Part shown: positions 3,521 to 58,780 of the stretch, piece by piece
Position numbering within the stretch: position 1 is the first letter of the stretch
How the letters are laid out: each line of letters opens with the position of its first letter
The notes under the pieces: generated by a model
What the model was told of the DNA's origin: nothing
What the model saw: the letters and a program-made list of their open reading frames with translations, nothing else
The model's database searches: none
From: Planctomycetia bacterium
GTDB taxonomy: Bacteria; Planctomycetota; Planctomycetia; Pirellulales; PNKZ01
DNA length: 64,000 nucleotides
Assembly (NCBI GenBank): GCA_021413845.1
Contig: JAIOPP010000006.1
Coordinates: forward strand, 62,001 to 126,000
Direction of reading: 5' to 3'
Program-made: the position numbers and the translations under genes

Positions 3521-3575
3521 GCCTGCCGCATAGTTTTCGTTCCCACTCCACCTACCGCTCGCGCAACTTCCCGCC

Positions 3576-4586: not shown

Positions 4587-4637
4587 TTTTCCTCTCCCGA
4601 TGTTTTCCGTTCCCCGCCTTCCGACGAACGATTCACG

Positions 4638-7948: not shown

Positions 7949-10900
7949 AGAATCCGAATACGCTGGAAGGCGAACTACGATCGGTCGCGGCTCGCTTTCG
8001 GCGACGAGCTCTGTGGCGCAGTCTGACGATCGTTTGGATCGTGGCGATCGTTGCTCTAGCGGCGACGTATTTCATCGTGCCCGATCGATTTCGCGCCGGG
8101 CTCGGAGGCGGCCTGTTTCTCGGAGCGATCGGAGCCGCCGCCGTGGCGGTCGCCGTTGCTCAGCTACGGAAATTCGATTTGCGCAAGGTGGCTCATGAGG
8201 TTGAGCTGCGCTATCCCGATCTGCAAACGAAACTACTCGCGGCCTTCGAGCAAGAACGGGCCTCGATGACCGGGCAGCGAGGTTTTCTCGAACAGGAATT
8301 GATTAAAGAGGCCCGCATCCACTCGCTGACGCACGCTCGTTGGCGGGAGACCGTGCCGACGAGCGAACTGCGGATGTGGGCCGTCGCGCAGGGTGCGGTC
8401 TCGCTGATCGTGCTGCTCATGTTCGGACTTCAGATGCTCTCGCAACGCCGCGAGAGCGGGATGGAGACGAGCGTCGCCGCCGATGAAACGCCGGCAAAAC
8501 CGCTTTGGAAATTCGAAGTCGAGCCGGGGGACGTCGAACTCGAGCGAGGAACCGATCTGCTGGTGCTCGCCCGTTTTCCCGAGCCGATCAAACTCCCGCG
8601 CGAAGCCGTGCTGCACGCCACCGACGTAGCGGGCGAACAACGACACCCGCTCGTGCAGAGCTTGAGCGATCCGGTGTTCGCGGCCCGCGTTCCGGAAGTG
8701 CGGGCGGATCTCACCTATCGTCTGACGTTCGAGGATCAGACTTCGCGCGAGTTCAAGGTCTCGGTGTTCGACTATCCCGAGTTGGAGCGGGCCGACGCGG
8801 AGTTGAACTATCCTTCATATACCGAGCTTCCCAAGCGACGCATCGAAGACGTGCGGCAGTTGAGCGTGCTCGAAGGGAGCGAGGTCAAGCTGCTTTGTCG
8901 CTTGAACAAACCGGTCGCTTCGGCAAGCCTAGTCCCCGCGGAAGGGGAAGCGATTGCGCTCGCCCCGTCTCCCGATGACAAGCAACTTTACATCGCGGCG
9001 CAAGTCGTATCGAAGAGCGTTCGTTGGCGACTGGAGCTTGTCGACGAGCGCGGCCGCAAGAACCGTGAGAACGTCGAGTTCGTCGTCGAGGTGGTGCCGA
9101 ACCGACCGCCGGAATTGAAACTTTTGTTTCCGCGCAACGACGTGGCCGTGTCGCCGTTGCAAGAGGTTCCGTTGGAAGTGGAAGCGTCCGACGATTTCGG
9201 GGTGGTCCGGTGGGGCTTAGCTTACGAGTTGACCGGCAAGAAGACGAGCTCGTTGACGCTCGGCGAGAAACTCCCGGCGAAGGAAAAGCGGAGCGGCAAG
9301 CACTTGCTCGCGCTCGAAGACTTGAAGGCGGTTCCCGACGAACTCCTGGCATGGCACGTGTGGGCCGAAGACCTCGGGCCCGACGGCAAACTGCGCCGCA
9401 CGACGAGCGACATCTACTTCGCCGAGGTGAATCCGTTCGAAGAGATTTTCCGCGAATCGACGATGGAAGGAGGGGGACCGCCGGGAGAAAAGTCGCCCGT
9501 CGACGAAACGGCGAAGCTGCAAAAAGAGATCATCTCCGCGACGTGGAATCTGCGCCGGCGCGAAAGCGGCGAGAAACCCTCGGCCCCCTACGGTTCCGAT
9601 GTGCGCGTGATCGCCGAAGCGCAGCAAAAGACGCTCGATTCGTTGGAGAAGATGAAAGAGAAACTCCGTTCGCCCGATGCGCTCGCGATCGTCGCCGAGA
9701 TCGAGAAGCAAATGCAAGCCGCCAAGGCGGAACTCACCGCCGCGGCCGACTCAGCCACGCTTCCACCGCTCGACAAAGCCTTGCCGCCGGAGCAGGCCGC
9801 CTATCAAGGTTTGCTCAAACTTCGGGCTCGCGAGACCCGCATCATGCGTATGAAGAATGCGCAAGGCGGGGGCGGTGCCGAAAGCCCGGCGGGCCAGAAG
9901 CTCGATCAACTGGAACTCAGCGAAGAAGAGAACCGCTACGAAAAGCGAGGGAAGTCGGCCGACCCGAACGAGACGCCCGCTCAACGCGAACGGGAAGCGT
10001 TTCTGAATCGGCTGCGCGAGTTGGCCCGTCGACAAGAAGACATGAACGAGAAGATCAAGGAACTCCAAGCGGCCTTGGAAGCGGCGAAAAATGAAGAGCA
10101 AAAGAAGGAACTCGAACGGCAGCTCAAGCGCCTCCGCGACGAGCAGCGCGAGCAGCTGCGCAACGTCGACGAACTTAAGAACAAGCTCGACAAGCCGGAG
10201 CATAACGAACCCCTCGCCGAAGCGAGCAAGAAGCTGGAAGAGACTCGCGAGAACATTCGGCAGGCTTCCGATGCGCTGGAGAAGGGGCAAACCCCGCAAG
10301 CGCTGACCGCGGGTGCTCGCGCCGAGAGCGGGCTCGACAAGCTGCGCGAAGACTTCCGCAAAAAAACCGCCGGCCGGTTTGCGGACGAAGTGCGCGATCT
10401 CCTCGACAGAGCCCAGCAGTTGGACGACCGCCAACAAGCGATCGGCCGAGAACTGGCGGATGACAAACAGCAACCGAAGGGAGCCGGTTTGAAATCGAAG
10501 GGAACCGCCGCGGAGCCGAAGCTGGCCGAACGTCTCGCCGGTCAGCAGAAGGAGCTCGCCGGCGTGCTCGATCAAGCGCGCGAAATCACCGAGCGCGCCG
10601 AAGGAAACGAGCCGCTCCTGACCAAGCAGCTCTACGACGCGATTCGCGAATCGAGCCAGAAGCAGACGCCGCAAGCGGTCGATATGCTTCGTCAACTAGT
10701 CGAGCACGGACTGTCGCAAGAAGCGAAGAAAGTCGAACCTCGGGCCCGCGAAGGAATCAGCCAACTGCGCGACAAGATCGAGAAGGCGAGCCAAGGGGTG
10801 CTCGGCAACGATATCGAAAGCTTGCGCCGCGCGAAAAGCGAAGTCGACCGCCTTGCGCAAGCGCTCGAGGAAGAACTTCGGCGCGAAGATCCGAGCGCCG

Positions 10901-11952
10901 CGCCAAGCGGCAAGCCGGGAGATCGGGCCGGCAACGATCCTGCCGACAAAAACTCGCAACAAGCAAGCGCGGCACAGTCCAACAGTAACGGTAACGGTAA
11001 CGCGAACAAGAAAGAGGGCGAAGGCTCGCAGCAAGCGCAAGGTAAAGAGCCCGGCAAGGAAGCTGGTAAGCAACCCGGCTCGGAATCCAGCGGCGCATCG
11101 GGCGCGAACGAGAAGCCCGAAGCGAAAGGGAGCGGTAAGGGAGCTACTCCGAGCGAAGGGCGAACTCCTTCCGGCAGCGAATCGCCGAGCGGCTCGCCGG
11201 GAGAAAAACCGATGCCCGGAGATCAGCCTGGAGGCAAAGAAGGACAAGCGGGGAAAGGCGATGCGCCTGGCAAGGGGGATGCGCCCGGTGAAGGAAAGCC
11301 GAGTGGAGATAAGCCCGGTGAAGGCAAAGCGCCGAGCCCCTCGGCTCAGGCAGGCCGCACGCCGGGCTTGCGCGGCAAGGGAGCGCAGCCGTCGCCGGGT
11401 GAGGGAGAAGGCGAAGGGAAAGGCCAAGGTGAAGGCAAGGGACAAGGCAAGGGACAAGGTGAAGGGCAGGGACAGGGTGAAGGGCAGGGGCAAGCCTCGT
11501 CGGGCCAAGGGTCGTCGGGTAAGCCGTCGTCGTCGCCAGGCAAGCCGAGCAGCCGGCCACAGCCTGGCGAACGCGAAACCGCGAACGCCAATCAAGCGGG
11601 CACCGGTTCGCATGGCGCGCTCACCGGCCCCGACTGGCGTGAGTGGTCCGACTCGTTGCGCAACGTCGAAGAGTTCGTGCCCGGCACGCGGTTGCGTTCG
11701 GAGGCGGCGCGCGTGCGCGAGGAAGCACAAGCGATCCGCACCGAAGCGAAGCGCCACTCGAAGGCCCCGAACTGGAGCTTGGTGCGCGAAAAAGTTTACG
11801 ACCCGCTCATCGAACTGCAGCAACAGCTGGATGAAGAGCTGGCAAGGCGCGAATCGCCTGAGGCCGCCGTGCCGCTCGATCGCGATCCCGTGCCCGATCG
11901 TTTCGGCGAGGCCGTGCGGCGCTACTACGAACGCCTCGGGAGCGGCCGATGA
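7945..11952 (+). CDS. Large membrane protein: beta-rich region, coiled coil and Gly/Lys/Gln low-complexity tail
   Basis: This protein has 1335 residues. Three membrane segments lie near residues 28-48, 52-72 and 150-172. Next comes a periplasmic, probably beta-sandwich region (about 190-510) and a long charged coiled coil (about 600-980, rich in Glu, Lys, Arg and Gln). A Gly/Ser/Pro/Glu/Lys tail (about 985-1215) follows and then a final helical segment. The layout resembles DUF4175/TIGR02302-type proteins by eye only. The start was chosen at 7945, where ATGA overlaps the upstream stop; an in-frame upstream extension would only overlap that gene. Its place between two VWA proteins suggests a structural envelope component of the MoxR system. 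Its function is unknown. Confidence 0.8.
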   Translation: MKNPNTLEGELRSVAARFRRRALWRSLTIVWIVAIVALAATYFIVPDRFRAGLGGGLFLGAIGAAAVAVAVAQLRKFDLRKVAHEVELRYPDLQTKLLAAFEQERASMTGQRGFLEQELIKEARIHSLTHARWRETVPTSELRMWAVAQGAVSLIVLLMFGLQMLSQRRESGMETSVAADETPAKPLWKFEVEPGDVELERGTDLLVLARFPEPIKLPREAVLHATDVAGEQRHPLVQSLSDPVFAARVPEVRADLTYRLTFEDQTSREFKVSVFDYPELERADAELNYPSYTELPKRRIEDVRQLSVLEGSEVKLLCRLNKPVASASLVPAEGEAIALAPSPDDKQLYIAAQVVSKSVRWRLELVDERGRKNRENVEFVVEVVPNRPPELKLLFPRNDVAVSPLQEVPLEVEASDDFGVVRWGLAYELTGKKTSSLTLGEKLPAKEKRSGKHLLALEDLKAVPDELLAWHVWAEDLGPDGKLRRTTSDIYFAEVNPFEEIFRESTMEGGGPPGEKSPVDETAKLQKEIISATWNLRRRESGEKPSAPYGSDVRVIAEAQQKTLDSLEKMKEKLRSPDALAIVAEIEKQMQAAKAELTAAADSATLPPLDKALPPEQAAYQGLLKLRARETRIMRMKNAQGGGGAESPAGQKLDQLELSEEENRYEKRGKSADPNETPAQREREAFLNRLRELARRQEDMNEKIKELQAALEAAKNEEQKKELERQLKRLRDEQREQLRNVDELKNKLDKPEHNEPLAEASKKLEETRENIRQASDALEKGQTPQALTAGARAESGLDKLREDFRKKTAGRFADEVRDLLDRAQQLDDRQQAIGRELADDKQQPKGAGLKSKGTAAEPKLAERLAGQQKELAGVLDQAREITERAEGNEPLLTKQLYDAIRESSQKQTPQAVDMLRQLVEHGLSQEAKKVEPRAREGISQLRDKIEKASQGVLGNDIESLRRAKSEVDRLAQALEEELRREDPSAAPSGKPGDRAGNDPADKNSQQASAAQSNSNGNGNANKKEGEGSQQAQGKEPGKEAGKQPGSESSGASGANEKPEAKGSGKGATPSEGRTPSGSESPSGSPGEKPMPGDQPGGKEGQAGKGDAPGKGDAPGEGKPSGDKPGEGKAPSPSAQAGRTPGLRGKGAQPSPGEGEGEGKGQGEGKGQGKGQGEGQGQGEGQGQASSGQGSSGKPSSSPGKPSSRPQPGERETANANQAGTGSHGALTGPDWREWSDSLRNVEEFVPGTRLRSEAARVREEAQAIRTEAKRHSKAPNWSLVREKVYDPLIELQQQLDEELARRESPEAAVPLDRDPVPDRFGEAVRRYYERLGSGR
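11395..11495 (+). repeat. In-frame Gly-Glu/Gln/Lys short repeat
   Basis: An imperfect six-base repeat (GGNGAR/GGNCAR/GGNAAR) encodes an alternating Gly-x tract of Glu, Lys and Gln after each Gly. It sits in the low-complexity tail of the large membrane protein. It is probably a disordered spacer and is prone to length changes. Confidence 0.75.
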
Positions 11953-14333
11953 GCGGTAGCTCCGCACAACTGCTCGGAGCGCTGGTGTGGGGCGCGCGCG
12001 CTTGGCTACTACCGGCCGTCGCGATCACGACCATCGCGCTTGCCGTGCTCGCTTGGGGCTACCTGCGGCTCGGCGGTTCACGGCGCTTGCGCTTCACCGC
12101 GGCGACGTTGAAAGCGGTCGGTATCGCGCTGCTTGCGGCTATTTTGCTCGATCCCCTGTGGTCGGGCACGCGCGCTCGCCCCGGCGAAAACATTCTATTG
12201 ATCCTGGCGGACAATAGCCGCAGTATGCAAGTGCGCGGCGACTCCGGCACGAAGACGGTCGGGGATGCTTTCGCCGAGCAACTCGGTGGAACGCTCGGCG
12301 ACGAACGCTTGCCGTGGCTCGTGCGGTTGAAACAAGATTTCGATGTGCGCCGCTATGCGTTCGGCGATCGACTCGAGCCGCGCACTTCGTTCGCCGACTT
12401 CAAGTTCGACGGCCGCTCTTCGTCGCTGCATACGGCACTCCGCGCCTTGGCGACGCGCTTCGAGGGGCGACCGCTCGCGGGCATCGTCTTGCTGAGCGAT
12501 GGTTCCGCGACCGACGTACTTTCGCCGGCCGATCTTGCGAAGCTCCCGCCGATTTATACTGTGTTGCCGCCCGAAACGGCGCCGGCCGCGGAGGTGAGCG
12601 TTACGCAAGTCGCCGCGACGCAGACCGGCTTCGAAGATGCTCCGGTCACGTTGACGGCCGAAGCCCAATTGCGCGGATTCGCCGGCGAGCCGCTCGTTTG
12701 CCAAGTGATTGACGAGGCCGGGAAAGTCGTGCAAACACAGGAGCAAACGCCCGGCGAGCGCGACGGCACGGCCGCGTTTCGTTTTCAGTTTCGACCGGCG
12801 AAACCGGGACTTTCCTTCTATCGCGTGCGCGCGACGGCGAAATCGCAACTCGGCGTCTGGGAAAAGCCCGAGATGAGCCGCGAAGGGACGCTCGCGAACA
12901 ACGAACGAATGGTTCAAGTCGATCGAGGTCGAGGGCCGTATCGCGTGCTGTATGTCGGCGGCGCGCCGAATCCCGAGCATAAGTTTCTCGGTCGCTCCTT
13001 GGCCGACGATAAGCAAGTCGAACTCACCTCGCTCGTGCGCATCGCGCGACGCGAACCGAAGTTCGACTTTCGCACGCGGGCCGGAGAGACGTCGAACCCT
13101 CTGTTCCGCGGCTTCGATAAGACGGACGACGAGACCGAGCGCTACGACCAGCCGGTGTTCGTGCGACTCGGCATTCGAGAAGAAAACGAACTGCGCGACG
13201 GCTTTCCGAAGTCGGCCGATCAACTGTTCGCTTACCATGCGGTCGTGCTCGACGACGTCGAAGCCGAACTCTTTACGACCGACCAAATGGCGCTGCTTGC
13301 GCGCTTCGTTTCCGAGCGCGGTGGCGGCCTGCTCATGCTCGGCGGGCCCGACGGCTTCTCGAAGGGCCGCTTCGAGAAGACGCCGGTTGCGGACATATTG
13401 CCGGTTTATATGCAGCGCAGCGCAGCGACGATGCCGCGCCCCGAAGCCGGTTATTGTTGGAAGCCGACGCGCGAAGGTTGGCTCGAGCCTTGGCTTCGTC
13501 TGCGAGCCAACGAAGCCGACGAGCGACTCCGCCTCGAAACGATGCCGCCGTTTCGGACGTTGAATCGGACGTCGGGCATCAAGCCCGGCGCGGTGGTGCT
13601 GGCCGCGGCGGTCGATTCGTCGGGTGCGGAGCAACCGGCGTTGGTCGTGCAAAACTACGGGCGCGGGCGAGCGGCGGCGCTGCTCATCGGCGACATGTGG
13701 CGCTGGCGGCTGAAGATGGAACCGGAGAATCAAGACCTCGAAAAAACGTGGCGGCAACTGGTGCGTTGGCTCACCGCCGACGTGCCGGGCCGCATCACGG
13801 CTTCGAGCGAAGTCGTCGCCGATGAGCTGACGCAATCGGTGCGGATCGCCGTGCGAGCGCGTGATCCGGATTATCGCCCGCTCGACAACGCACAAGTGAA
13901 ACTGCGAATCGTTTCGCCCGACGGCACGACCTTGCCGCTCGATATGGAACCGAGCCGGCGCGAGGCGGGGATCTATGAAGCCTCTTATGTTCCCCGCGCG
14001 CCGGGGGCGTATCGGGCAAGCGTGAGCGTCGTCGACGGCTCCGGCAAAGAGATCGGCGGAAGCGAAACCGGCTGGACCAACGATCCCTCGGCCGATGAGT
14101 TTCGCCGGCTGGAGCCCGATCGAGACTTGCTGCGGAAGATTGCGACCGAAACGAAAGGGGACACGGTCGAACTGAAGGATCTCGAACGGTTCGCTTCCGA
14201 GCTCGCCGCCCGTCCGGTGCCGGAGACGGTGCAATCGCTGTTTCCGATCTGGCATACGGCTTGGGTCTTCGGGCTGGCGATCGCGTGTTTGGCCGGGGAG
14301 TGGGGACTGCGGCGCTGGAGGGGCTTGCCGTGA
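11949..14333 (+). CDS. Membrane VWA protein with GATase1-like domain
   Basis: This 794-residue protein has two N-terminal membrane segments (about 15-38 and 50-70) and a VWA domain whose MIDAS motif DNSRS starts at D88. A class I glutamine-amidotransferase-like region lies near residues 420-570 (GGGLLMLGGPDGFSKG) without an obvious nucleophile Cys. An Ig-like region and a C-terminal membrane segment (about 765-785) follow. The ATG overlaps the previous stop (ATGA). It completes the pair of VWA proteins on either side of the coiled-coil protein, as in other planctomycete MoxR loci. The MIDAS suggests metal-dependent protein binding rather than catalysis. Confidence 0.87.
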   Translation: MSGSSAQLLGALVWGARAWLLPAVAITTIALAVLAWGYLRLGGSRRLRFTAATLKAVGIALLAAILLDPLWSGTRARPGENILLILADNSRSMQVRGDSGTKTVGDAFAEQLGGTLGDERLPWLVRLKQDFDVRRYAFGDRLEPRTSFADFKFDGRSSSLHTALRALATRFEGRPLAGIVLLSDGSATDVLSPADLAKLPPIYTVLPPETAPAAEVSVTQVAATQTGFEDAPVTLTAEAQLRGFAGEPLVCQVIDEAGKVVQTQEQTPGERDGTAAFRFQFRPAKPGLSFYRVRATAKSQLGVWEKPEMSREGTLANNERMVQVDRGRGPYRVLYVGGAPNPEHKFLGRSLADDKQVELTSLVRIARREPKFDFRTRAGETSNPLFRGFDKTDDETERYDQPVFVRLGIREENELRDGFPKSADQLFAYHAVVLDDVEAELFTTDQMALLARFVSERGGGLLMLGGPDGFSKGRFEKTPVADILPVYMQRSAATMPRPEAGYCWKPTREGWLEPWLRLRANEADERLRLETMPPFRTLNRTSGIKPGAVVLAAAVDSSGAEQPALVVQNYGRGRAAALLIGDMWRWRLKMEPENQDLEKTWRQLVRWLTADVPGRITASSEVVADELTQSVRIAVRARDPDYRPLDNAQVKLRIVSPDGTTLPLDMEPSRREAGIYEASYVPRAPGAYRASVSVVDGSGKEIGGSETGWTNDPSADEFRRLEPDRDLLRKIATETKGDTVELKDLERFASELAARPVPETVQSLFPIWHTAWVFGLAIACLAGEWGLRRWRGLP

Positions 14334-24647: not shown

Positions 24648-25219
24648 ACGAGTCCGGCGACCTCGATGAGATAGGCAGCGATTTCCGGCAAACCGAGTAC
24701 GCGAGCGCCGGGACAAGCCGCGAGCGCAGATTCAGGCATCGCCGAGGCGTATGCCGATTTCGGACACTGAACTACGGTCGAGCCTCCCGCACGGTAGATG
24801 GCACGCAAGCCTTGAGAGCCGTCGCTATTGGCTCCGGTGAGAACGACGCCGACGAGGCCCTCGCCGTAAACATCGGCGGCGGATTCGAATAAGACATCGA
24901 TCGAGGGTCTGGAAAACAGCACGGGCTCTTCGCTCGAGAGCGATAGCCGATCGTCGGCCTCGACCAACACATGATAGTCGGGAGGCGCAATGTAGACAGT
25001 GCCGGCTTGAAGCGGTTCTTTATCTTCGATTTCCCTCACGTCGACTCGGCATTTCATCTGTAAAAGCTTAGCCATCACACTGTTTTTGTCCGGAGCAAGA
25101 TGCACGACTGCGATCACCGGCAGCGGATAATGACGCGGCAACAACGGTAGTATAGCCGATAGCGCTTCCACTGCGCCGGCCGAAGCACCGATGACGATCG
25201 CTCGAGCGCGCGACGGCAT
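24644..25219 (-). CDS. CheB-type methylesterase without receiver domain
   Basis: This 191-residue CheB catalytic domain has Ser13 in GASAGA, His40 in VVHLAPDK and Asp133 in GANSDGSQG, the full triad. The usual N-terminal receiver is missing, so this is the stand-alone form found in alternative chemosensory or stress pathways. The start at 25219 overlaps the cheR stop by one base (TAATG), and the stop overlaps the next kinase start. Its partner CheR is directly upstream. No methyl-accepting protein or CheA is present in the window, so the substrate may be a non-MCP target or an MCP encoded elsewhere. Confidence 0.9.
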   Translation of the reverse strand: MPSRARAIVIGASAGAVEALSAILPLLPRHYPLPVIAVVHLAPDKNSVMAKLLQMKCRVDVREIEDKEPLQAGTVYIAPPDYHVLVEADDRLSLSSEEPVLFSRPSIDVLFESAADVYGEGLVGVVLTGANSDGSQGLRAIYRAGGSTVVQCPKSAYASAMPESALAACPGARVLGLPEIAAYLIEVAGLV

Positions 25220-26046
25220 TAGGGGGTGCCTCGTTTTTGATAAATGCGCGCGTCGCGCGAGAACTCGGTGAAGTCGTCGGCATGTCGGGAGAATCGCAAA
25301 CTTTCTTTCGCACCTAAGCCGAGGAACCCTTTGCGCGACAAGGCGTCTTTGAACAAACCGACGGCCCGATTCTGCAGTTCCGGATCGAAATAGATGAGGA
25401 CGTTGCGACACGATACTAATTGGACTTCGGCAAAAACCGCGTCGGAGACGAGGCTATGGTCGGAAAACACGGTTCGACGGCGTAGGCTCTTGTCGAATAC
25501 CGCGGCTCCGTAGGCCGCGGTGTAATAATCGGACAACGACGACTTGCCTCCGGAACGACGATGGTTTTCCGTAAATAGCGGGATTCGATCCAGCTCGAAC
25601 ACTCCCGCCTCGGCCTTCTTCAGCGCTTCCAGGTTGATGTCGGTGCCGTAAAACAACGTGCGATCTTCGAGCCCCTCTTCGCGAAACAGGATCGCGAGCG
25701 AATACAACTCTTCGCCCGCACTACAGCCCGCCACCCATACCTTCAAGGAAGGATAGGTCCGTAAATGGGGGACGATGAGCTCGCGAATCGTGCGGAAATA
25801 CGCAGGATCGCGAAACAATTCACTGACTTGAACGGTTAAAAAAGAAAGCAGCGGAGAAAGCAGCGTCGGATCGTGCAGCAGCCGATCTTGAAGGAGCGAA
25901 AACGTTCGGCAACCGAAATGGTCCTTCGCGCGATGCAGTCTGCGCTTCACCGACGCCGGCGAATAGCCGCGGAAGTCGTAGTGGTACTTACGGAAGATCG
26001 CTTCGAGCACGAGGCGAATCTCGATGTCTTCGGTCGTGTCTGACAT
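25219..26046 (-). CDS. CheR-type SAM-dependent methyltransferase
   Basis: This 275-residue protein has an N-terminal helical CheR domain (residues 1-75) and a C-terminal Rossmann methyltransferase. The SAM motif is WVAGCSAGEELYSLAI, and YGTDINLEALKKAEAG and LVSCRNVLIYFD are family motifs. It transfers methyl groups to glutamates, normally on chemoreceptors. The start at 26046 (MSDTTED) fits family alignment better than the 16-residue upstream extension. It lies 54 bases after the big hybrid kinase and one base overlaps cheB, so the four genes form one operon. Confidence 0.92.
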   Translation of the reverse strand: MSDTTEDIEIRLVLEAIFRKYHYDFRGYSPASVKRRLHRAKDHFGCRTFSLLQDRLLHDPTLLSPLLSFLTVQVSELFRDPAYFRTIRELIVPHLRTYPSLKVWVAGCSAGEELYSLAILFREEGLEDRTLFYGTDINLEALKKAEAGVFELDRIPLFTENHRRSGGKSSLSDYYTAAYGAAVFDKSLRRRTVFSDHSLVSDAVFAEVQLVSCRNVLIYFDPELQNRAVGLFKDALSRKGFLGLGAKESLRFSRHADDFTEFSRDARIYQKRGTP

Positions 26047-29928: not shown

Positions 29929-32900
29929 CTAATTTCCGGCTCGACTCACGGACTTGGGCGAGGCGCTCGAGCGCTCGCGATAAAGCTGTTGCACATCGGG
30001 CAGCTTGGCTTGCGACAATGCACTGAATTCGCCGAGCTTGTCGTCGGGAATCATGCGCAAATAGCGCAGCGCCAGAGGGAGCGATTTCCGCGAATCGATC
30101 CGCTGCAGGGCGCGGGCCGCAGCTTGGCAAGTTGCCGATTCAAGGCCGATCGTCTCCGGATAAAATTGTGCGTCGAGCAGTTGACGCGCTCGCTCGAGCT
30201 TGCGAATCGCGATTTCGGTTTCCCGAATTCGGGTCTTCGCTTCGAGGCCGGTTCCTCCTTGTTGGATAGCGTCGCGCAGGCCGGCTCTTGCCCCTTCGAG
30301 TATCCAACGCTGACGCCAAGCGTAGAACGGCAGCTCCAAGACTCCTTGGCAAAATTGCTCGGCGGTCTCGGCATTGCGCCGACCGCAACGCCATAAAGCC
30401 TGCGCAACGAAGGGGCGTAAGAGTCGCGTTCGATAAATGTCGAAGACCGTCGACGTGTTGTAGTTGTCCGCGACTTGCAGCGCCGTCCATTTCACATCTT
30501 GATCGGCAAGCTGGCGGAGCTCCGCTTCGAGCGTCGGCAGAGCCGCCGGATCGGCACTCGCGGCGATGCATCGCAAGCGCATCACCGGGTCTTGCAGCTT
30601 CCAAGCTTGAATCGTCTCGAAGCGAATCGACTTCACCGACGTCGCGGCGATCTCCGCCACGAGCGTCTCGAGCATCAGCGGCGGGGCTTTGAGAAATTTT
30701 TCGCCGAGTTTCGACCAACCTGCGTCGTTCTTGATCTTAAAGCCGATGCTCTCGATCAATTCGTTGTAAGCTTGCGGGTCGACCTTGCTCGGATTCTCCA
30801 ACAGATACGTCGCGACCACCAATGCCTCGGCCTCGCCTCCTTGAGCGAGTAAAAAGCGGAGTCGATCGAGCCCTTCGGTTTTGGGCTTCGTCACCGCTTG
30901 TTTCGAGCTTCCTCCCAGGGCATCCTCGAAAGCCTCGCTCGTCAACATCTTCACTTCTTTCGCCAAGCGTGCTGCGATCTCGGGCGAAGGGGTCGAGCGC
31001 TGCTCAGCCCCTTTCGTGAGCGATTTCAACATTTGAGACACGAGCTTCGGCCATGCGGCGTTTTGCCAATACGGAGTTTCCGGCATCCCGGAATGCGAAC
31101 CGGTCCAGACTAAAACATTTCCTGCGCCGAAATTTCCCCCGATTAATAGAGGAGCCTCGCCGACCTTCATCAGCACCTTCGCCGCCGGACGAACTCGCAC
31201 GTGATTGATCCATTCGATCGCCGCCGAAGTTCCGAAGTCGGGAGCCGACGCGCCCAGAGCGGCGGCGTAGTCGGCCGTCGCAGCGAACGATCGATGCGAC
31301 TCTTGAAGGCGCAACAGATGTCCTGCTTGCAGAGTTTCGAGCGGTAATGCTTCTTCGAGAAAGCTCCCTTCCCAAGAGCCTTTGGAAAGAGAGTACCAGC
31401 CTCCCATGACGAGCAAAGAACCACCCGCCGAGACGTAGTCGCGCAGATCGCGCCGCTGTTCCAGCGTGAACGCCGTGGCCGGAAGATCGTCGAGCACGAC
31501 GGCATCCATCTCCGCTAATCCTTCGCGCGTGGGCCAACCTTCGAGACATGCGATGTTGTCCTTCGCCAGGGGGACACTGCACGCGATGCGGCCGTTGACG
31601 AGGCTCGCATCGTGAAGTTCGACGCTCGGCAACATCACCGCGGCTTGCTCGACCCGATCCCAATGCGAGAAGACGCCGCGAACGACCAGCACGTCGGGCC
31701 GACCGTTGCGGCGCAACTGAAACGGCGGAGCGGCCGGAATCCCCGCAACCAATTGGGCATCGACGTCCGCTCGATGCGCCGAGAAGTCGACCGGCAAATG
31801 AGCTTGAGCGCCGGGATTGTTGTCGATCGGCTCGCCTTGCGCAAGGATTTCGGCGAGCACTTCAGGCGTGACTTTCACACGGGCTTCGTTCACTGCGCGC
31901 ACCACTTCCGGGCCGGTCGATGCGCTTAATTGTAGCGCGGCCCGCGCCTTCTCCGCATCGACGCTCCCTGGCTTCGCGAAGTTCAACGGAATGTCGCACA
32001 GCGTATGCAGCGCCGGAGCCGATGTCTCTTTGCGAAGTTCGATCGCCACCAGCGACCACACACCGATGCTCGGCACCGTGACCAGCCCGTCGACCACGGG
32101 ACTCACGGTCGTGGTGAAATTCGTCGGATCGTCGCAGGCGACCACCGACAAGGCTTGATATCCGGCCGGCAGCGCGAGCTTAAACGTGACGTTTTCTCGC
32201 GGACCACTCACGCCGCTCGGCGGCTGATTCTGACCGTGCAGAGTCAGCTTGTCCGTGGCGTTAACAAGTTGCATCACCAACCACGAGCGATCCGGCCCCG
32301 CCGATTTCTCGTAGACGAAAGCGTCCCAACGGAAGTCCGCGTTGTTGACCGGTTGAACGACTTTGCGCGGATCGGCCAAGCGTCGGAGACCGGGATCGAA
32401 CATGAATTCGGAGAAGCGCGTCGCGAACTTATTGAAGTGCCCGCCCCCGCCCATCGGCCGCGCGCCGCCGGCCAGCATCAACGCTTGATTCCAGACCGAA
32501 GATTCGTCGGAGATGCAAAGAAAGTAGCCGCCGTGCAAGCGCGTGGCATCGCCGACCGAACGAAGATGCTCGATGTTCGTCGGCACCGGTCCCAGAATGC
32601 CGCGATAATACTCGGACATGATCAAGCCGCCGGCTCGCGCGCACGCGGCGAGCTCGACATCGGTCGCCGCACCTTCGGCCGTATTATGTTGCGGGCCGCA
32701 GTAGTTGTAGCCCAGTGCGAAGCCGGGTATCTGCGATTGGATTCGATCGGCGGCGTGCTTCACCATCCGCGCCGACATCGCGGGGTTCTGATAGTAATTG
32801 AAGTGGCCGTCGTAGCGCACGCCGTCCCAACCGAATTGCTTCGCCGAGCGGACGATCTCATCGCAACCGAAATCGGTCGCGGCATGATTGCCGATCAACG

Positions 32901-51414: not shown

Positions 51415-52719
51415 CTACACGAACAGCGCGGCTTCCGCTGCTAATCCTGGCCCGAAACCTAAGGCGACGCACGGCATCTTCGCGCCCGAGGCGCGTAGGC
51501 GTTGCAGGATGAAGAGGACGGTCGGCGACGACATATTGCCGCATTCGGCGAGGACTTCGCGCGACACGGCCGTAGCGGAGCGCGGCAGGCCGAGGCTTTC
51601 TTCGACCGAAGAGAGAATGCGCGGCCCGCCCGGATGCACGGCCCAACTCCCGACGTCTTCGATCTTGAGCCCTTGCGCCGCCAGCCACGACTCGAACCAC
51701 GGTCGCAGGTGCTTGCCGATCAAGTCGGGCACACGCGACGAGAGGAACATCTCGAACCCGTTGTCGCCGAGGTTCCACGACATCGCATCGGTGGAATCGG
51801 GAATGACGCACGAGCCGGTCGCAGCGCAACGCAACGTGCCGCCGTCGTTGGCGGATGCGGCATTGGGTGCGGAGTCGGCGTGGCCGATGACGAGCGCTGC
51901 CGAGCCATCTGCGAAGACCGCGTTGCCGACGGCGCGAGTCGGGTCCCATTGAAACGAGTAGTGCAAACTGCAAAGTTCGACTGCGCACAAGAGAACGCGA
52001 TTCTTCGGATCGGCTTGCGCAATCGCGGTGGCGGCGCGGAGGCCGTTGATCGCGCCGTGGCAACCCATGAAGCCGACTTGGATCCGGCCGACATCGCCGC
52101 GCAGGCCGAGTCGATTGATGATCGAGATATCGATGCCCGGCGCAAAGAAGCCGGTGCAGGTAACGGTGACTAAATGCGTGATCGCGGCGGCAGCGACGCC
52201 GGAATCGATCAGCGCGAGTTCCGCGGCATGTACGGCGAGTTCGGGTGCCGCTTCCGCGAAGATCTGCATCCGTTCGGCGGTCGAAGGGCCGCGATGGACC
52301 GGACCATCCGACTCGGGCAAGTCGCCGAGTTCTTCTTCGGTCATGTCTTCGATATGCGCGTCGTCGAGCATGCCGTCGATGATGCGGCGGCGACCGTTAG
52401 CGGAGGCGGCGTGACCGTTGCCGTTGTGGGACGAACCGTTCTTCGACGCACCGACTTCGGCGTGCAAGGCGGCAGCGCCGACCGTCGAGACGACGGTTGC
52501 CGGAGCGGCAAGCCACTCGAGAGCGATTTGATAAGGTACGCAGGTGGCGCGTTGTTTAACGCCTGCCTTGCGATAGAGAACCTTGACGAGTTTCTTCTCC
52601 GCTTCGTCGCGGCAGCAAATTTCTTGGGCGAGCATGACGGCATCGTCTTGCGCCATCAGGTATTCGGGCTGAGCGGTTCCGAGTCCGAGAATCGCGGCAT
52701 GCGAAGACGACTGCGTCAT
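51415..52719 (-). CDS. Type III polyketide synthase with a 60-70 residue insertion
   Basis: This 434-residue thiolase-fold enzyme of the chalcone/stilbene-synthase type has Cys220 in VGFMGCHGAINGLR, His in WAVHPGGPR and Asn in CGNMSSPT, the full triad. It condenses acyl-CoA starters with malonyl-CoA. KAGVKQR and PSTAERM are the usual flanks of a continuous N-terminal region, but here about 75 residues (68-143), rich in Asn, Gly and Ser and then acidic, separate them. Normal enzymes have 350-390 residues. The start at 52719 (MTQSSSH) was preferred to TTG at 52734. No tailoring enzyme is adjacent, and the product is unknown. Confidence 0.9.
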   Translation of the reverse strand: MTQSSSHAAILGLGTAQPEYLMAQDDAVMLAQEICCRDEAEKKLVKVLYRKAGVKQRATCVPYQIALEWLAAPATVVSTVGAAALHAEVGASKNGSSHNGNGHAASANGRRRIIDGMLDDAHIEDMTEEELGDLPESDGPVHRGPSTAERMQIFAEAAPELAVHAAELALIDSGVAAAAITHLVTVTCTGFFAPGIDISIINRLGLRGDVGRIQVGFMGCHGAINGLRAATAIAQADPKNRVLLCAVELCSLHYSFQWDPTRAVGNAVFADGSAALVIGHADSAPNAASANDGGTLRCAATGSCVIPDSTDAMSWNLGDNGFEMFLSSRVPDLIGKHLRPWFESWLAAQGLKIEDVGSWAVHPGGPRILSSVEESLGLPRSATAVSREVLAECGNMSSPTVLFILQRLRASGAKMPCVALGFGPGLAAEAALFV

Positions 52720-53214
52720 GTCTGAGTTTCCCAAGCGACAAAAATACGAAACCGCCGACCTAATTCATTCGGACCGACACCGGACGCCGAGAGCATCGGC
52801 GAACCGAACGCACGAAGACGCCGACTGCCAGAGACGGCGTGCTTGTCGAATCGGCGCAGGTCTATTCGATAGAACAACTTAGCGTCGACTAAACGTCGCG
52901 ATCCGGCAATCCTTGCCCGCGAGCGGCTACCGAGGCGAACCGGTTCGGTGTTCGACTCTCTTCCGCCACCGGCTCGTTTGAAGAAGCGCGGCTGTTGAAG
53001 AGAGATTTGTGTCGAATCGAACCGCAATACAAGAGCGCCTCGTTCAGACTGATGTTACATCGATCTGTAGTGTAAAGGTTTACGCCGTCTTGAGTCAATG
53101 AGACGTGACCGGCCTTGAAGATGCGCAAAACGGCTGCCGGCAGGGTTCAAACCGTAATTCCGGCGATTCTTAAGAAGCCGCAATGCGAACGGGGGGAGCC
53201 GCGAAGCTTCGAGG
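52720..53214. other. 495-base non-coding gap upstream of the type III PKS
   Basis: No ORF with a good start site and plausible codon use was found. The minus-strand promoter candidate (53069-53098) lies in it and would give a leader of about 340 bases for the polyketide synthase. No riboswitch pattern was recognised. Base composition is slightly lower in GC around 53040-53110 than in the flanking genes. Confidence 0.4.
53069..53098 (-). promoter_or_regulatory. Sigma-70-like promoter candidate facing the type III PKS
   Basis: Read on the minus strand, TTGACT (53098-53093), an 18-base spacer and TACACT (53074-53069) match -35 (5/6) and -10 (4/6). It points to the polyketide synthase start about 350 bases away. 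Confidence 0.4.
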
Positions 53215-54160: not shown

Positions 54161-55216
54161 CTAAACGCTCGCCGTGCGCGGCCGGCGAAAACGGGAGCGC
54201 CATGCGCAAATCACGCAGAACCCGAAGCCGACGGCATTGAGCGTGCCGTGGATCGCGCGCATGTGAGGAATATCGAGGATCTTGATCGGGTAGACGCTGC
54301 GCAGGCCGTAGAGCGTGGCGAGAACCATTGCGGCAATCAGCGAAGCAGCGGCGACCGACCAAAGCCCACGCACGAGCGGAGTGTACTGCGCGCGTCCGGC
54401 CAACAGGAGATGCATCCAAGCCACGAGCGCTCCGGCGAGCGCCATAATGACCGCGGCGACCGTTTCGAGAGCCGAGCCGTATCCCAACTTCGCGGCGAGG
54501 ATGCCGGCGGCGGTGAGGGGAACCCCGATCATCGCGGCGATGCAGGCCGCTTTCGCAAGCAGGCTTTCGTTCAATTCCTTCGCCGCCCAGCCGGCTGCGA
54601 GCAGCAGCACGAATCCGGCATAGTGGAAGTGGAGCGCCGTGAGAATCTCGATGTTCGACTCGAAACCCCAAGGCCGCATGCCGGCCCTTTCGACGACGAC
54701 CCAAACACCGCCGATCGCAAGAAAGATGAAGGCGACATTGATGGTGAGCCCCCAGAGACAGCGCGTGCCGCGCTCGCGAATGGCGACGATGCCGGTCAGA
54801 GCGTAGAGGCACGTCATCGCGAGCCAGGGCAATGTCAGCGATGCGACGGCAATGCCGGGAACCATCAGATACGCGCCGATCAATACCGCGGCCGCCGACA
54901 GATGCATGCGCTCGATCAATTCCCACAACTTCACGGTCGCCGGCGTCACCGACTTCAGAAAAATGCCGACCGTCAACGGGACGATGACCAACGCCGCGAG
55001 CAGCAACAACATCTCCGACCAAAACGCTTCGAGCCTGACCGGCTCTTTCAGCAGCGCCGGGTTTTGCCATTGCCAATAGGCGAAGATCCCTAAGAAAACC
55101 CCGCCGACTACGGCCCTGACGATGTCGATGGTCGGCGCGACGACGGTCGACCCCGGAACGACCGGAACGGTTCCGGACGAAGCGCCGGAAGAGGCGGGTG
55201 CGGGAGTCGAAGTCAT
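54161..55216 (-). CDS. YndJ-like multi-pass membrane protein
   Basis: This 351-residue protein has about nine to ten membrane segments after a Pro/Ser/Thr/Val-rich N-terminus (residues 1-25). The conserved-looking motifs ILTALHFHYAGFVLLLAAG and IPHMRAIHGTLNAVGFGFC match the His-containing segments of the YndJ family of Bacillus. The function of that family is unknown. The two His-rich motifs within membrane helices hint at metal or heme binding, but that is inference. It lies 87 bases from the small protein gene and has a 253-base upstream gap (55217-55469) without recognised features. Confidence 0.75.
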   Translation of the reverse strand: MTSTPAPASSGASSGTVPVVPGSTVVAPTIDIVRAVVGGVFLGIFAYWQWQNPALLKEPVRLEAFWSEMLLLLAALVIVPLTVGIFLKSVTPATVKLWELIERMHLSAAAVLIGAYLMVPGIAVASLTLPWLAMTCLYALTGIVAIRERGTRCLWGLTINVAFIFLAIGGVWVVVERAGMRPWGFESNIEILTALHFHYAGFVLLLAAGWAAKELNESLLAKAACIAAMIGVPLTAAGILAAKLGYGSALETVAAVIMALAGALVAWMHLLLAGRAQYTPLVRGLWSVAAASLIAAMVLATLYGLRSVYPIKILDIPHMRAIHGTLNAVGFGFCVICAWRSRFRRPRTASV

Positions 55217-55469
55217 AGGGTGCTCGCGCGACGAGGTGTGGAACGATTCAAAGGTGAACGATTACTCGCCGATCGGGCCTCTCGCAAGGCGCGAAATCGG
55301 GCCGCTGCCGGAGGTCGGCAAGGCTAGACGCATTCTGCATTCCGCGTGCCGGCCACCGAACGAGCTCTCCGAATCTCTGTCGCACATTTCCTCACATCCT
55401 CGGCGACTTACAAGAGTGTAACGCAATGCAGCGGATTGCCGGATTAGTAGATCAAAGATTCGTGCGACG

Positions 55470-56417
55470 TTACGGAAGCGGCGGCGGCTGAGGCGGAGCC
55501 GGCAATGATTGGGTCGTCGATGGTTGGGTCGGCAATGGTTGGGCCAGCGATTTTTTATGTTGCTCAAGAACGAACTTGAGGCGCATGTCGTGCCGGTAGC
55601 GCAAATACATTTTCCAGGCTACGACCCCTCCTCCGACAATACAACCGACGACGATCATCACGATCGCAACGAGCGTCCAATCCATGCTTCGGGCGATTGC
55701 GCCGGGGATCTCGGCCAAGGGCTGAAGCGCCGCTTGCGAAAGATCACGTGTCCCGTCGATAAACGGCTTCGGATCGGCGAGGAACGCAGCGAGCCCGGCC
55801 GTTACGGCCAACTTCCCTTTGTTCCTCCAGATAAACTGCATCGCGTTATCGCCGTAGCGGCCGACGACATCGAGCAATTCCGCGTTTCGGGCCAGCGGTG
55901 CGGTCGCTTGGTCGGTCGACATCATCGCGAGAAGTCTGCCGTTTTGAGGATCGACCGCTTTGAGTGCCCGCACGGCCGCCTCGCCCGACTCCTTCAAGAG
56001 CGGCTCGGCAAGCTCCTTATGCTTCACGAGCACCTCGGCCGCGTCGTCGCCGTATTTCGAGGCGAGTTCCAGTCCCGCGGGCCGTTTGGCGATCCACACG
56101 ACGCCGTCGTCGCCGAAGCGCGCCATGGCGCGAATCGCCGCGGCGCTGTTCGGACCGGCTTCGTCGGCAATGCGAAGCGCGCGCGGACCGAGTTTGCGCA
56201 TCGCTTCAATCCCTTCGTCGCCATGTTTCGTGGCGAACACTTCGATCTTCTTAGCTAGGACTTCGAGCCCTTCTTCACCGGCCTCTTTCGAGAACTTCTT
56301 CGTGACGTATTCGACCGTCTCGCGCACCGCCTTCGCGGCGACTTCGGCCTGGGCCGCTTGCGGCGCATAGCAAAAACAAAGCGCCGCGAGCAGCGCGGCT
56401 TTCAACAGCTTCTTCAT
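55470..56417 (-). CDS. Exported membrane protein of unknown function (third gene of coupled operon)
   Basis: This 315-residue protein has a signal peptide (MKKLLKAALLAALCFCYAPQAAQA) and a helical region (25-195) with repeated GDD/GDE-type turns (KHGDEGIEAM, RFGDDGVVWI, KYGDDAAEVL, RYGDNAMQFI) at roughly 20-50 residue spacing, like degenerate helical repeats. A membrane segment near 246-270 (WTLVAIVMIVVGCIVGGGVVAWKMYL) and a Pro/Gln/Thr-rich tail follow. Its ATG overlaps the lipoprotein stop. I do not recognise the family. The domain is probably outside the inner membrane with a short cytoplasmic tail, or the reverse. Confidence 0.75.
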   Translation of the reverse strand: MKKLLKAALLAALCFCYAPQAAQAEVAAKAVRETVEYVTKKFSKEAGEEGLEVLAKKIEVFATKHGDEGIEAMRKLGPRALRIADEAGPNSAAAIRAMARFGDDGVVWIAKRPAGLELASKYGDDAAEVLVKHKELAEPLLKESGEAAVRALKAVDPQNGRLLAMMSTDQATAPLARNAELLDVVGRYGDNAMQFIWRNKGKLAVTAGLAAFLADPKPFIDGTRDLSQAALQPLAEIPGAIARSMDWTLVAIVMIVVGCIVGGGVVAWKMYLRYRHDMRLKFVLEQHKKSLAQPLPTQPSTTQSLPAPPQPPPLP

Positions 56418-56596
56418 GGGTTGGCTCCGTATTTCTTAGCGGCTTCCCGCGCAGCGGCCGCGCGTTCGTCGGCATTTTTTGCATCGAGCGAAGGGGAACT
56501 TCCGGCAACCGATCCGGCCGGCTTCGTCGGTTCTTGGCAACCGACCGACGCCGACAGCGCCAGAGCGACGATGCTTGCCGTGAACATTTTCTTCAT
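56414..56596 (-). CDS. Small lipoprotein of unknown function
   Basis: This 60-residue protein begins MKKMFTASIVALALSASVGC, a lipoprotein-like signal with Cys20, although the -3 position is Ser. A short, charged, Ala-rich mature part (NADERAAAAREAAKKYGANP) follows. Start and stop both overlap the neighbouring genes by ATGA, so the reading frame is well supported by coupling despite its size. Confidence 0.7.
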   Translation of the reverse strand: MKKMFTASIVALALSASVGCQEPTKPAGSVAGSSPSLDAKNADERAAAAREAAKKYGANP

Positions 56597-57759
56597 AACG
56601 CTTCTCCGGTTTCGTCGAAGACCAAACGACGCAGCGCTTCGCGGCGCAGTTTGGCTCGTGTTTCATGGAGCTTAAGCAATTCGCGGCGCAACCCCAAGCT
56701 GCCACCCGCCTCGATCGAATCGACCGCTTTTTGCGATTCAGCCCGAACGGTTGCATCGTTATCGGAACGAGCCATCGACCGCAACTTGTCCAACGCGGCC
56801 AGGGCTTCGGGATCACCTTCGACGAGCAGCGTGCGGACTTGCTTGAGAACGTCGCGGACTTTTTCGGAAATCTTTTCGGCCGGATCGTAGCCGGCGATCT
56901 TCGTAATCCGATCGATGGCGACGTCGATCGCCACGGCCGCAACCAAGCCGATGCCGAACGTCGCCCAACTCGAGGCGGCGCCTGTGCCGAGAATACCGGC
57001 GGACACGCCGAGCCGTGTCGCTACGGCCGTCGCGACGCGCACCGCGATCTGTGCCGCGATCTCGCCGGAAACGAACGACACTACCTCACGTGAGACGGCG
57101 AATTGCGAATCGCGCGCCACTGCCTCGGCAACATCTTGCAGCAGTCGCTCGAAGCGGCGACGGAATTCCTGCTCGGGCAGGGCGGCCAGAGGAGCGCCGG
57201 GCACCGCGAACTCGCGCTCGCTTAAATCGGCCCGCACATCGACGAGGAGTTGATTCTCGATTCCTTGTACGCGACTCACATAACCGCCGATCGCCGACTC
57301 GATCACGGTCTTGAGATCGGCGATCGCGAAAATGTTTTGCTCGAACTTCTCCTGCAGAAACTTGAGATGCGCGTCGTCGTCGACCGTCGGGAGTTTGCTT
57401 TTCACGAAGACCCATTTGCCTTGAAGCGACAGGACCGCTTCGGCGAACGGCTTCGTCCCGGCTCGACGTTCGTAGAAGAATTCATCGATCGAAGCGAGTT
57501 CGACTTTAAGGCACTCGAGCGCCTCGCGATCGGCTTCGTCGATGCGCGGCTCGATCTTGTCCCAAGCCTTGCGCCGCCAAGTAGTCCAATCGATCGGCGA
57601 GTTCGTCGCGGGGGGCGCAACGTCCGCTGGGGCGATCCTCAGTTCCGGCATGTGAGCGGCCGGCAGATAGAAACGACCGAGCCAAACCGCAGCGCCGAAC
57701 GAGACGATCAGCGTCGTCGCGAGAACGGTCGAAGCGGTAGTCGAGCGGCGCGGGTCCAT
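56593..57759 (-). CDS. Membrane-anchored protein with glycine-rich hydrophobic core (first gene of coupled operon)
   Basis: This 388-residue protein has an N-terminal anchor (about 9-30). Helical segments (60-200) lead to a hydrophobic Gly/Ala region at about 230-285 (GVSAGILGTGAASSWATFGI), followed by a charged helical C-terminus (290-388). The hydrophobic core between amphipathic helices resembles a membrane-insertion or glycine-zipper segment. No family was recognised. GGAAG precedes the ATG. It is the first gene of the three-gene operon. The 181-base gap upstream (57760-57940) shows no other gene. Confidence 0.75.
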   Translation of the reverse strand: MDPRRSTTASTVLATTLIVSFGAAVWLGRFYLPAAHMPELRIAPADVAPPATNSPIDWTTWRRKAWDKIEPRIDEADREALECLKVELASIDEFFYERRAGTKPFAEAVLSLQGKWVFVKSKLPTVDDDAHLKFLQEKFEQNIFAIADLKTVIESAIGGYVSRVQGIENQLLVDVRADLSEREFAVPGAPLAALPEQEFRRRFERLLQDVAEAVARDSQFAVSREVVSFVSGEIAAQIAVRVATAVATRLGVSAGILGTGAASSWATFGIGLVAAVAIDVAIDRITKIAGYDPAEKISEKVRDVLKQVRTLLVEGDPEALAALDKLRSMARSDNDATVRAESQKAVDSIEAGGSLGLRRELLKLHETRAKLRREALRRLVFDETGEAL

Positions 57760-57940
57760 GATCTTCCGTGCTTACGTCGCGAAGGAACTCGAGGTCGCAC
57801 GGCAATCGGGGCAAAAACGAATACCGTCCCGCAACCGTGGCTCGACGCTACAAGTGTATCACGAAAAACGGAAATCGCCGCAAGTCGGGTGCAATGCCGG
57901 CGACGGAAGCCGTTATCGGCGGAAAACATCCGTCGCGCGG

Positions 57941-58780
57941 CTACCAATCCACGATTTCGTGCAACGAGCGGTCGATCGTCGCACACAGTTCATCGAGCGG
58001 CAGATCGTCGCCATCGGTGCCGAATGGGTCTTCCGCTTCTTCCGCCAACACCTCGATGCCGACCATCAGATAGGCCACGAGCATCGTCACCGGCGCCGTC
58101 CACCATTCGAGCGTGTCGACGAGGCCCCAGGGAAGCGTGAGCACGTAGACCCAGATCGATTGCATGATGAACCGACGATAGCCGCCCGAGATCGGGGTCT
58201 TGTGGATGCGTTCGCAGCTACCGCAAATCTCTAACAGCGCCGCCGCATGGCGATCGAGAAACAAAAGTTCGAAGCCCCCGAGTTGCTCCGAGTGCCGCCA
58301 ACGCTCCAAGCGATCGTAGATGCGGGCCACGATAAACGAAGGGACATGCTTCGGCTGTTCGGTCGAGTCGTGAAAAGTCGGCAAGTCTTGCAGGCGAACC
58401 CCGCCGCGAAGATGGTCCTTCAACGCAAACGCGAAGGCCGAAAGCCGCTCGGCGATTTCGATCTTATCGCGCGGTTCGGCGCGCACGCAGGTGGCGATCT
58501 TCACGGCGAAGTTGCGCGTCTCGTTGACGAGTTGCCCCCACAGCTTGCGCCCTTCCCACCAACGGTCGTAGGCCGTGTTCGTGCGAAACACGAGCAGCAA
58601 GCCGAGGATCAAACCTAAGAGCGTATGAAACGCCGGCGTCAGATGAATCGCCCCGCCGGTAATTTGATCGATCCCGGAGACGACCAAGCAATAGAGCCCG
58701 ATGCCGATCACGACCGGCACGGTCTTACGAAGGGCGGCGCTCGACATAGCGGAAGGGGGGCGTTTGCTCGGAGAACTCAT
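57941..58780 (-). CDS. Bestrophin-like channel (bestrophin/UPF0187 family)
   Basis: This 279-residue protein has about four membrane segments. GLILGLLLVFRTNTAYDRWWEGRKLWGQLV and the acidic EDPFGTDGDDLPLDEL near the C-terminus are the bestrophin-family signatures. Bacterial members form pentameric cation or anion channels. The start at 58780 was kept, but a second ATG 11 codons in is possible. It sits 67 bases downstream of the threonine ammonia-lyase end on the same strand. Confidence 0.9.
   Translation of the reverse strand: MSSPSKRPPSAMSSAALRKTVPVVIGIGLYCLVVSGIDQITGGAIHLTPAFHTLLGLILGLLLVFRTNTAYDRWWEGRKLWGQLVNETRNFAVKIATCVRAEPRDKIEIAERLSAFAFALKDHLRGGVRLQDLPTFHDSTEQPKHVPSFIVARIYDRLERWRHSEQLGGFELLFLDRHAAALLEICGSCERIHKTPISGGYRRFIMQSIWVYVLTLPWGLVDTLEWWTAPVTMLVAYLMVGIEVLAEEAEDPFGTDGDDLPLDELCATIDRSLHEIVDW

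Follow-up and report, generated by a model that had tools for sequence, protein, structure and literature searches.

The stretch of DNA analysed here (the window, 64,000 nucleotides of contig JAIOPP010000006.1 from the Planctomycetia bacterium assembly GCA_021413845.1) carries a three-gene operon, P1-P2-P3, of which P1 and P3 form a conserved gene pair. P1 is a predicted membrane-anchored, helical protein whose model probably resembles the trunk of dynamins. The likeness is one in kind, and descent from dynamins is not claimed because helical bundles often match by chance and several direct sequence tests failed. Our preferred reading, with a probability of about 40%, is that P1 and P3, together with the lipoprotein P2, would form an envelope module tethering or reshaping membranes from the periplasmic side without GTP. 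An original prediction had proposed an envelope complex, possibly membrane-inserting. Its envelope part agrees with the predicted topology and with the conservation of hydrophobic segments in P1 and P3, while insertion is kept here as a conditional step of the mechanism. The dynamin-trunk-like fold of P1, the link between P2 and an insert in P1, and copies of the pair on mobile elements are new.

Distribution and pairing of P1 and P3

A P3 profile run against a single genome from each species yielded 71 loci, and IMG/VR added one (72 in total, labelled L). In four loci (L053, L054, L074, L082) the contig begins within P3, leaving 68 testable. P1 was found directly upstream of P3, on the same strand, in 64 of them. 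The co-occurrence across planctomycetes that had been put forward as a check was thus recovered, and homologues were mostly not single or scattered. The exceptions were P3 without P1 upstream in four loci (L031, L033, L061 and L080) and P1 without P3 in at least two (L172, L174). In L031 and L033, P3 directly followed a gene resembling, by eye, L-aspartate oxidase. The gap between P1 and P3 was exactly an ATGA overlap in 11 of the 64 pairs, a rough count based on longest open reading frames (ORFs), some of them overlong.

P1 was present in 13 of 57 related genomes and, in a separate set, in 23 of 393 Planctomycetota genomes. A hand count gave 29 P1 places in those genomes; 27 were examined and 25 adjoined P3. 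One place lacked P3 (G367:C115) and one was cut by a contig end (G367:C162). The P3 tally, 43 of 393 genomes, was inflated by an unnamed family, f53, of long proteins (about 670-715 residues) that match the P3 profile on the repeats only. Hosts of P3 loci were mostly Planctomycetota, joined by Verrucomicrobiota, including Akkermansia, one Syntrophaceae and two hosts labelled Bacteroidetes, which are labels of metagenome-assembled genomes and may be wrong. Some loci are redundant: L018 and L121 repeat L048, and others, such as L072 and L073, are near copies.

Hydrophobic segments recurred at the same ends of the proteins. Among 60 full-length pairs, P1 had an N-terminal segment in 57, and P3 had an N-terminal one in 51 and a C-terminal one in 53. 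The alignments A3 and A4 retained hits of 240-345 and 260-440 residues, respectively, leaving out overlong, split and truncated copies; L083 was excluded from A4.

Dynamin likeness of P1

The AlphaFold model of P1 (predicted local distance difference test, pLDDT, 82.9; predicted template modelling score, pTM, 0.76) comprises an anchor helix, long helices, a Gly-rich hairpin (residues 231-281) and four more helices. Hydropathy peaked at residues 8-28 and 261-288, matching the anchored chain with a Gly/Ala-rich hydrophobic core described in the original prediction. When Foldseek candidates were realigned with VIA, six of the top seven rows belonged to the dynamin superfamily (Z 7.0-9.1). The best was the bacterial dynamin-like protein BDLP (2j69; Z 9.1, 4.3 Å over 229 residues), followed among dynamins by dynamin (5a3f, 9.0), SynDLP (7zw6, 8.1), DRP1 (4bej, 7.9), Cj-DLP (5oxf, 7.1) and OPA1 (8ct1, 7.0, root mean square deviation 7.5). 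The remaining row was a designed bundle (4uos, Z 8.8). The matched part of BDLP, residues 369-648, lies inside the trunk only (bounds 360-656; PMC2862293).

Profile searches pointed in the same direction. The PADLOC family LeoBC (PDLC03841) matched 27 of 58 P1 proteins at E <= 0.1 (best 6.3e-8), and every other PADLOC family matched two of the 58 at most. Six of ten P1s scanned singly listed LeoBC, five of them under 0.01, and all these matches fell in one register, profile positions 323-552, past the GTPase part. A profile-profile comparison of P1 with the helical region of 16 LeoBC-like proteins from planctomycetes gave a probability of 29%, against 2.8% for a reversed target, 1.8% for a reversed query and 0.2% with P3 as query. 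In a global profile alignment (12%) the P1 hairpin fell on the hydrophobic paddle of the LeoBC-like proteins. P1 is not filed as a dynamin, because the GTPase, a defining feature, is absent. The P-loop motif GxxxxGK[ST] was absent from 58 of 58 P1s, and Dynamin_N matched neither the window P1 nor appeared among the families matched by the 58.

Several observations weigh against the dynamin likeness. The Z-scores of 7.0-9.1 are within the chance range of helical bundles, for which a value of 13 is advised. In the PDB, Foldseek itself gave P1 no match below E 0.001, and pore formers of the ClyA type headed its list. Model confidence is lowest in the hairpin, with pLDDT below 50 at residues 253-264. 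The window P1 matched LeoBC at E 0.0051 only. The profile-profile probability was only 29% and fell to 11.5% for whole proteins. A profile of the 16 LeoBC-like proteins hardly separated P1s from reversed P1s (best 16.0 versus 9.0 bits, medians 1.2 versus 0.4), and single-sequence phmmer comparisons reached E 0.054 at best. The P1 profile was negative or marginal against five P-loop ORFs, and did not find the dynamin encoded in the window genome, which is one of the five. Searched against PDB sequences, the A4 profile of P1 returned no dynamin and three TraT chains (E 0.049-0.12), and alignments A1 and A2 returned nothing significant. Finally, neither P3 nor P2 showed anything pointing to dynamins.

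A dynamin partner for P1 was considered in L172 (a single case, not used) and rejected, as profile comparison showed neither neighbour to be a dynamin. In this locus (7560-12386, + strand) P1 stands without P3 and is followed by a 717-residue P-loop protein (GQLNAGKST; MMR_HSR1 20.9 bits, cut-off 21.9; Dynamin_N E 0.014) and then by a 602-residue helical membrane protein of no family. Elsewhere, in L195 (G024:C106), less than 5 kb separates a Dynamin_N match at 25202-25666 from a VirD4-type coupling protein at 30077-31467.

Copies on mobile elements

A VirD4/TraG-type ATPase was found within about 5 kb of the pair, always on the same strand, in 14 of the 72 loci (L023, L024, L027, L036, L037, L041, L044, L046, L047, L048, L050, L068, L079, L090). 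The ATPase model was seeded from eleven of these and could miss unlike ATPases. Pfam recognised type IV coupling protein domains in all three proteins scanned. The 14 loci often shared further genes: a ParB-like gene (11), an integrase (9), a protein of 70-180 residues ending like GMER (12; in L090 it is fused to P1), a membrane protein with two segments (8) and, as a tentative label, an excisionase-like gene (8). L048 is the plasmid pSINAC03, where the pair lies between ParB and the coupling protein and a MobF relaxase is also present. This plasmid has 12 genes in common with another plasmid, and a similar one is seemingly integrated in a chromosome (PMC5352709, 2017). One IMG/VR contig with P3, found by an alignment search, encodes an integrase together with a VirD4-type ATPase and is not necessarily viral; viral contigs searched with a single P3 yielded no relative. 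Upstream of the mobile P1-P3 cassette in L041 is a 1236-residue NACHT protein with HEAT repeats (3372-7082, + strand), perhaps a defence gene.

In the main alternative to an envelope module, the pair would belong to planctomycete mobile elements, as a component of either their conjugation apparatus or an entry-exclusion system. P1 and P3 would then either be the envelope component with which the VirD4-type ATPase works or keep incoming elements out, and chromosomal copies such as that in the window would be domesticated. The recurrent ATPase and its companions, the copies on pSINAC03 and the IMG/VR contig, and a weak resemblance, below threshold, between the P1 hairpin and TraT, a surface-exclusion protein (E 0.049), all argue for this. 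So does the P3 tree, where nine of its ten mobile rows cluster with the clade of the window (support 80, which is weak) and the mobile label needs 4 changes versus 9.5 in shuffles; four of the 14 mobile loci were removed by the row filtering and are not in this tree. However, no ATPase of this type was seen at 58 of the 72 loci, some of them on short contigs, and P1, P2 and P3 had no match to Mpf/VirB-type families in Pfam, NCBIfam or PHROGs. The coupling-protein family PF02534 occurs in 68 of 393 genomes and had no match in the window genome. The machine also runs without the pair: 13 of 18 coupling-protein stretches fetched lack both P1 and P3, and the other five were chosen because P3 was already known there. 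This rules out that the pair is essential to all VirD4 elements; it is an accessory in those that carry it. We regard a conjugation role as possible but rather unlikely.

The window copy looks settled in the chromosome, since there is no PF02534 match and look-alikes of the Oxidored_molyb gene downstream of the operon stand at similar places in L019-L022. It is possible that this copy derives from a mobile element.

P2 and the P1 insert

The P2 sequence has a signal peptide with a lipobox cysteine, which predicts lipidation. By eye, a lipobox-like stretch leads to Cys20, in keeping with the tiny lipoprotein seen originally. The dipeptide GC at residues 19-20 was invariant in nine of nine aligned P2s, all of which also shared a C-terminal motif in which Leu, Arg and Gly do not vary. 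Relatives of P2 lay between P1 and P3 in L019-L022, L028, L035, L037 and L050, and in L028 the P1/P2 and P2/P3 joints overlap too. The P2 of L050 (6146-6577, + strand) is longer, 143 residues, with an extra C-terminal domain after the lipoprotein part. Across 393 genomes P2 matched in 99 at E <= 0.01. Only G000 and G003 exceeded 27 bits, both in this operon; the remaining matches scored 26.6 bits or less, many on the signal-peptide half alone.

P2 is rarer than the P1-P3 pair and follows a 38-residue insert in P1. Among 58 aligned P1s, it accompanied eight of the ten that have the insert, whereas the 48 that lack it were all without P2 (one-sided Fisher 2e-8, a value that overstates independence, as the rows are related). 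The four copies from the window genus are one clade, leaving perhaps five independent cases of P2 with the insert, and P2 is missing beside the insert in L023 and in L048, the plasmid copy. The insert and the P2 tail both resemble, by eye, HEAT-type helices. Their co-occurrence and this shared resemblance suggest that P2 may dock on the insert.

P3 and the remaining alternatives

P3 is predicted to be an alpha-helical repeat protein. Its AlphaFold model is all helix (pLDDT 89.5, pTM 0.68) and had no match in the PDB under E 0.001 (best VIA Z 5.5, to a designed repeat) and none among viral structures; P3 may nevertheless have a known fold. The degenerate GDD/GDE repeats and the membrane segment noted at the outset were both recovered. 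G[DE]x motifs occur at residues 47, 66, 102, 123, 145 and 189, and 63 P3s averaged 4.8 of them, whereas 50 composition shuffles gave 1.8 on average and 2.1 at most; recurring spacings were 14, 20-22, 34-36 and 56. The aureocin-like bacteriocin family PF11758 matched 21 of the 63 at E <= 0.01 (best 8.3e-7). At 16.5 bits the window P3 stayed below the cut-off of 25; L029 reached 22.0. Among the f53 proteins, those of L105 (1117-3141, - strand) and L108 (175-2265, + strand) have 674-696 residues, with many YGDD-type repeats and two membrane segments in the C-terminal half. The L105 protein (674 residues, distantly P3-like) exceeded the cut-offs for PF11758 (28.2 bits) and SapB_2 (21.8). The hosts of this family may be anammox bacteria.

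The operon could also encode a static envelope structure, for example one that spaces the inner membrane from the outer, the dynamin likeness being a chance match of bundles. A pair anchored at both ends, with long helices and repeats and accompanied by a lipoprotein, would suit such a part, and all the dynamin evidence is under firm thresholds. However, LeoBC stands out as a specific match (27 of 58 P1s, the next family two) with one shared register, and the patchy spread of P1 is ill-suited to a general structural component. We consider this reading unlikely. Very unlikely is a pore or membrane perforator like the alpha-pore-forming proteins, made by P1 with P3 for competition, lysis or defence: ClyA, XaxB, MakB, SmhB and Hbl-type proteins fill the weak Foldseek list for P1 (best E 0.076), P3s match PF11758 and mobile copies suit a cargo role, but on VIA realignment ClyA fell well below the dynamins (Z 5.0, 10.9 Å), both proteins are predicted to be anchored in a membrane of the cell that makes them, the pair has no recurrent immunity gene as a neighbour, the window P3 misses the PF11758 cut-off, and PADLOC shows no known defence system except the LeoBC likeness.

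The operon in the window

The operon lies on a 257-kb contig of a 7.08-Mb genome, and its features are listed in Table 1. Both ATGA overlaps reported originally were found. A Bestrophin_2 gene and a YndJ-like gene flank the operon, 181 and 253 bases off, and the nearest same-strand genes are 181 bases upstream and 253 bases downstream. No sigma-70-type promoter was found in 55100-58000; terminator-like sites in this interval numbered 3, versus a shuffled mean of 4.0, with none at the operon end. Ratios of non-synonymous to synonymous differences (pN/pS) between the window and its congeners were 0.46-0.49 for P1, 0.41-0.50 for P3 and 0.57-0.70 for P2, with synonymous sites near saturation. These substitution patterns are consistent with proteins under selection. 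P2 relatives occupy the same slot in other lineages, and for these two reasons P1, P2 and P3 look like real genes. As first noted, the families are unrecognised: all three window proteins were below cut-off in every Pfam and NCBIfam family, and none had an over-cut-off match in PADLOC or PHROGs. PI3Ka, Cyclin_C_2, GT87, ZapG and similar hits were rejected as chance-level matches. Elsewhere in the window (51415-52734, - strand) is a gene of the type III polyketide (chalcone/stilbene) synthase family.

Table 1. Features of the P1-P2-P3 operon, in window positions
Feature	Position	Strand	Remark
P1	57759..56593	-	388 aa (amino acids), predicted membrane-anchored, all-helical, dynamin-trunk-like model
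P1 N-terminal membrane anchor	57667..57738	-	model helix 8-31; hydropathy peak 8-28
P1 Gly/Ala-rich hydrophobic hairpin	56917..57069	-	residues 231-281; candidate paddle
P1 38-residue insert	56704..56817	-	residues 315-352
ATGA overlap P1/P2	56593-56596	-
P2	56596..56414	-	60 aa, predicted lipoprotein, conserved C-terminal helix motif
ATGA overlap P2/P3	56414-56417	-
P3	56417..55470	-	315 aa, predicted exported alpha-helical repeat protein
P3 signal peptide	56346..56417	-	residues 1-24 (by eye)
P3 GDD/GDE helical repeats and conserved cap	55758..56279	-	residues 47-220
P3 stretch with weak aureocin-like bacteriocin (PF11758) likeness	55806..55877	-	residues 181-204
P3 C-terminal membrane segment	55602..55679	-	about residues 247-272

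Proposed mechanism and significance

In the envelope module that we favour, P1 would be held by its N-terminal helix with the bundle in the periplasm. The hairpin could act like the BDLP paddle, inserting in the membrane that anchors P1 or in the one opposite. P3, fixed by its C-terminal helix, would be an obligate partner or scaffold of P1, and P2, in the outer or inner membrane, would dock on the P1 insert where this is present. Because the periplasm is without nucleotide, the module would have to work by assembly alone, like the nucleotide-free tethering reported for the Campylobacter dynamin pair. The reported location of LeoA is a precedent for the periplasmic placing. A bolder version, which we consider doubtful, is that P1 represents a dynamin lineage that lost its GTPase and moved to the periplasm. 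Its nucleotide-free anchored trunk, with a solenoid partner, would serve planctomycetes at the folds of the inner membrane and be borrowed by mobile elements to join membranes in DNA transfer.

Planctomycetes have unusual internal membranes, and the operon offers a small, testable gene set for membrane shaping in this group. The mobile copies give a handle on DNA movement between planctomycetes, on which we found little in the open-licence literature. Searches of that literature on planctomycete dynamins and coats, GTPase-less dynamins and planctomycete conjugation listed nothing on this operon. If the preferred reading is true, a periplasmic dynamin-like trunk lacking a GTPase would mean that the membrane-binding half of dynamins works alone. 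It would also resolve a question that the LeoA paper raised, namely why a dynamin should be found in a nucleotide-free compartment (PMC4159319).

Comparison with known systems

The VirD4/TraG coupling-protein elements of the pSINAC03 type resemble the present system as neighbours of the pair in 14 of 72 loci, but many of them are without P1-P3, and PF02534 had no match in the window genome. With aureocin-like bacteriocins (PF11758) the likeness is a short motif in P3; it differs in covering about 24 residues inside a repeat protein, which in the window is under the cut-off. Mgm1/OPA1 of the mitochondrial intermembrane space is an anchored dynamin on a periplasm-like face (OPA1 8ct1, Z 7.0). 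Unlike P1 it is a GTPase with its own system, and the likeness is limited to place and layout.

LeoABC of Escherichia coli H10407 is linked to P1 through LeoBC, the sole profile recurring over P1s, past the GTPase part. LeoA is reported to be periplasmic with a Gly-rich paddle, and LeoC to be membrane-anchored (PMC4159319). However, the Leo proteins keep GTPase motifs, and the accessible part of that paper mentions no P3 or P2 partner. Cj-DLP1/2 of Campylobacter jejuni, which tethers liposomes without nucleotide (PMC6104087), is also encoded by two adjacent genes and gave a fold row at Z 7.1 (5oxf); there both partners are dynamins, whereas P3 is none. The best fold match of the P1 model is BDLP1 of Nostoc, which it resembles in the trunk only and in the hydrophobic hairpin at the tip.

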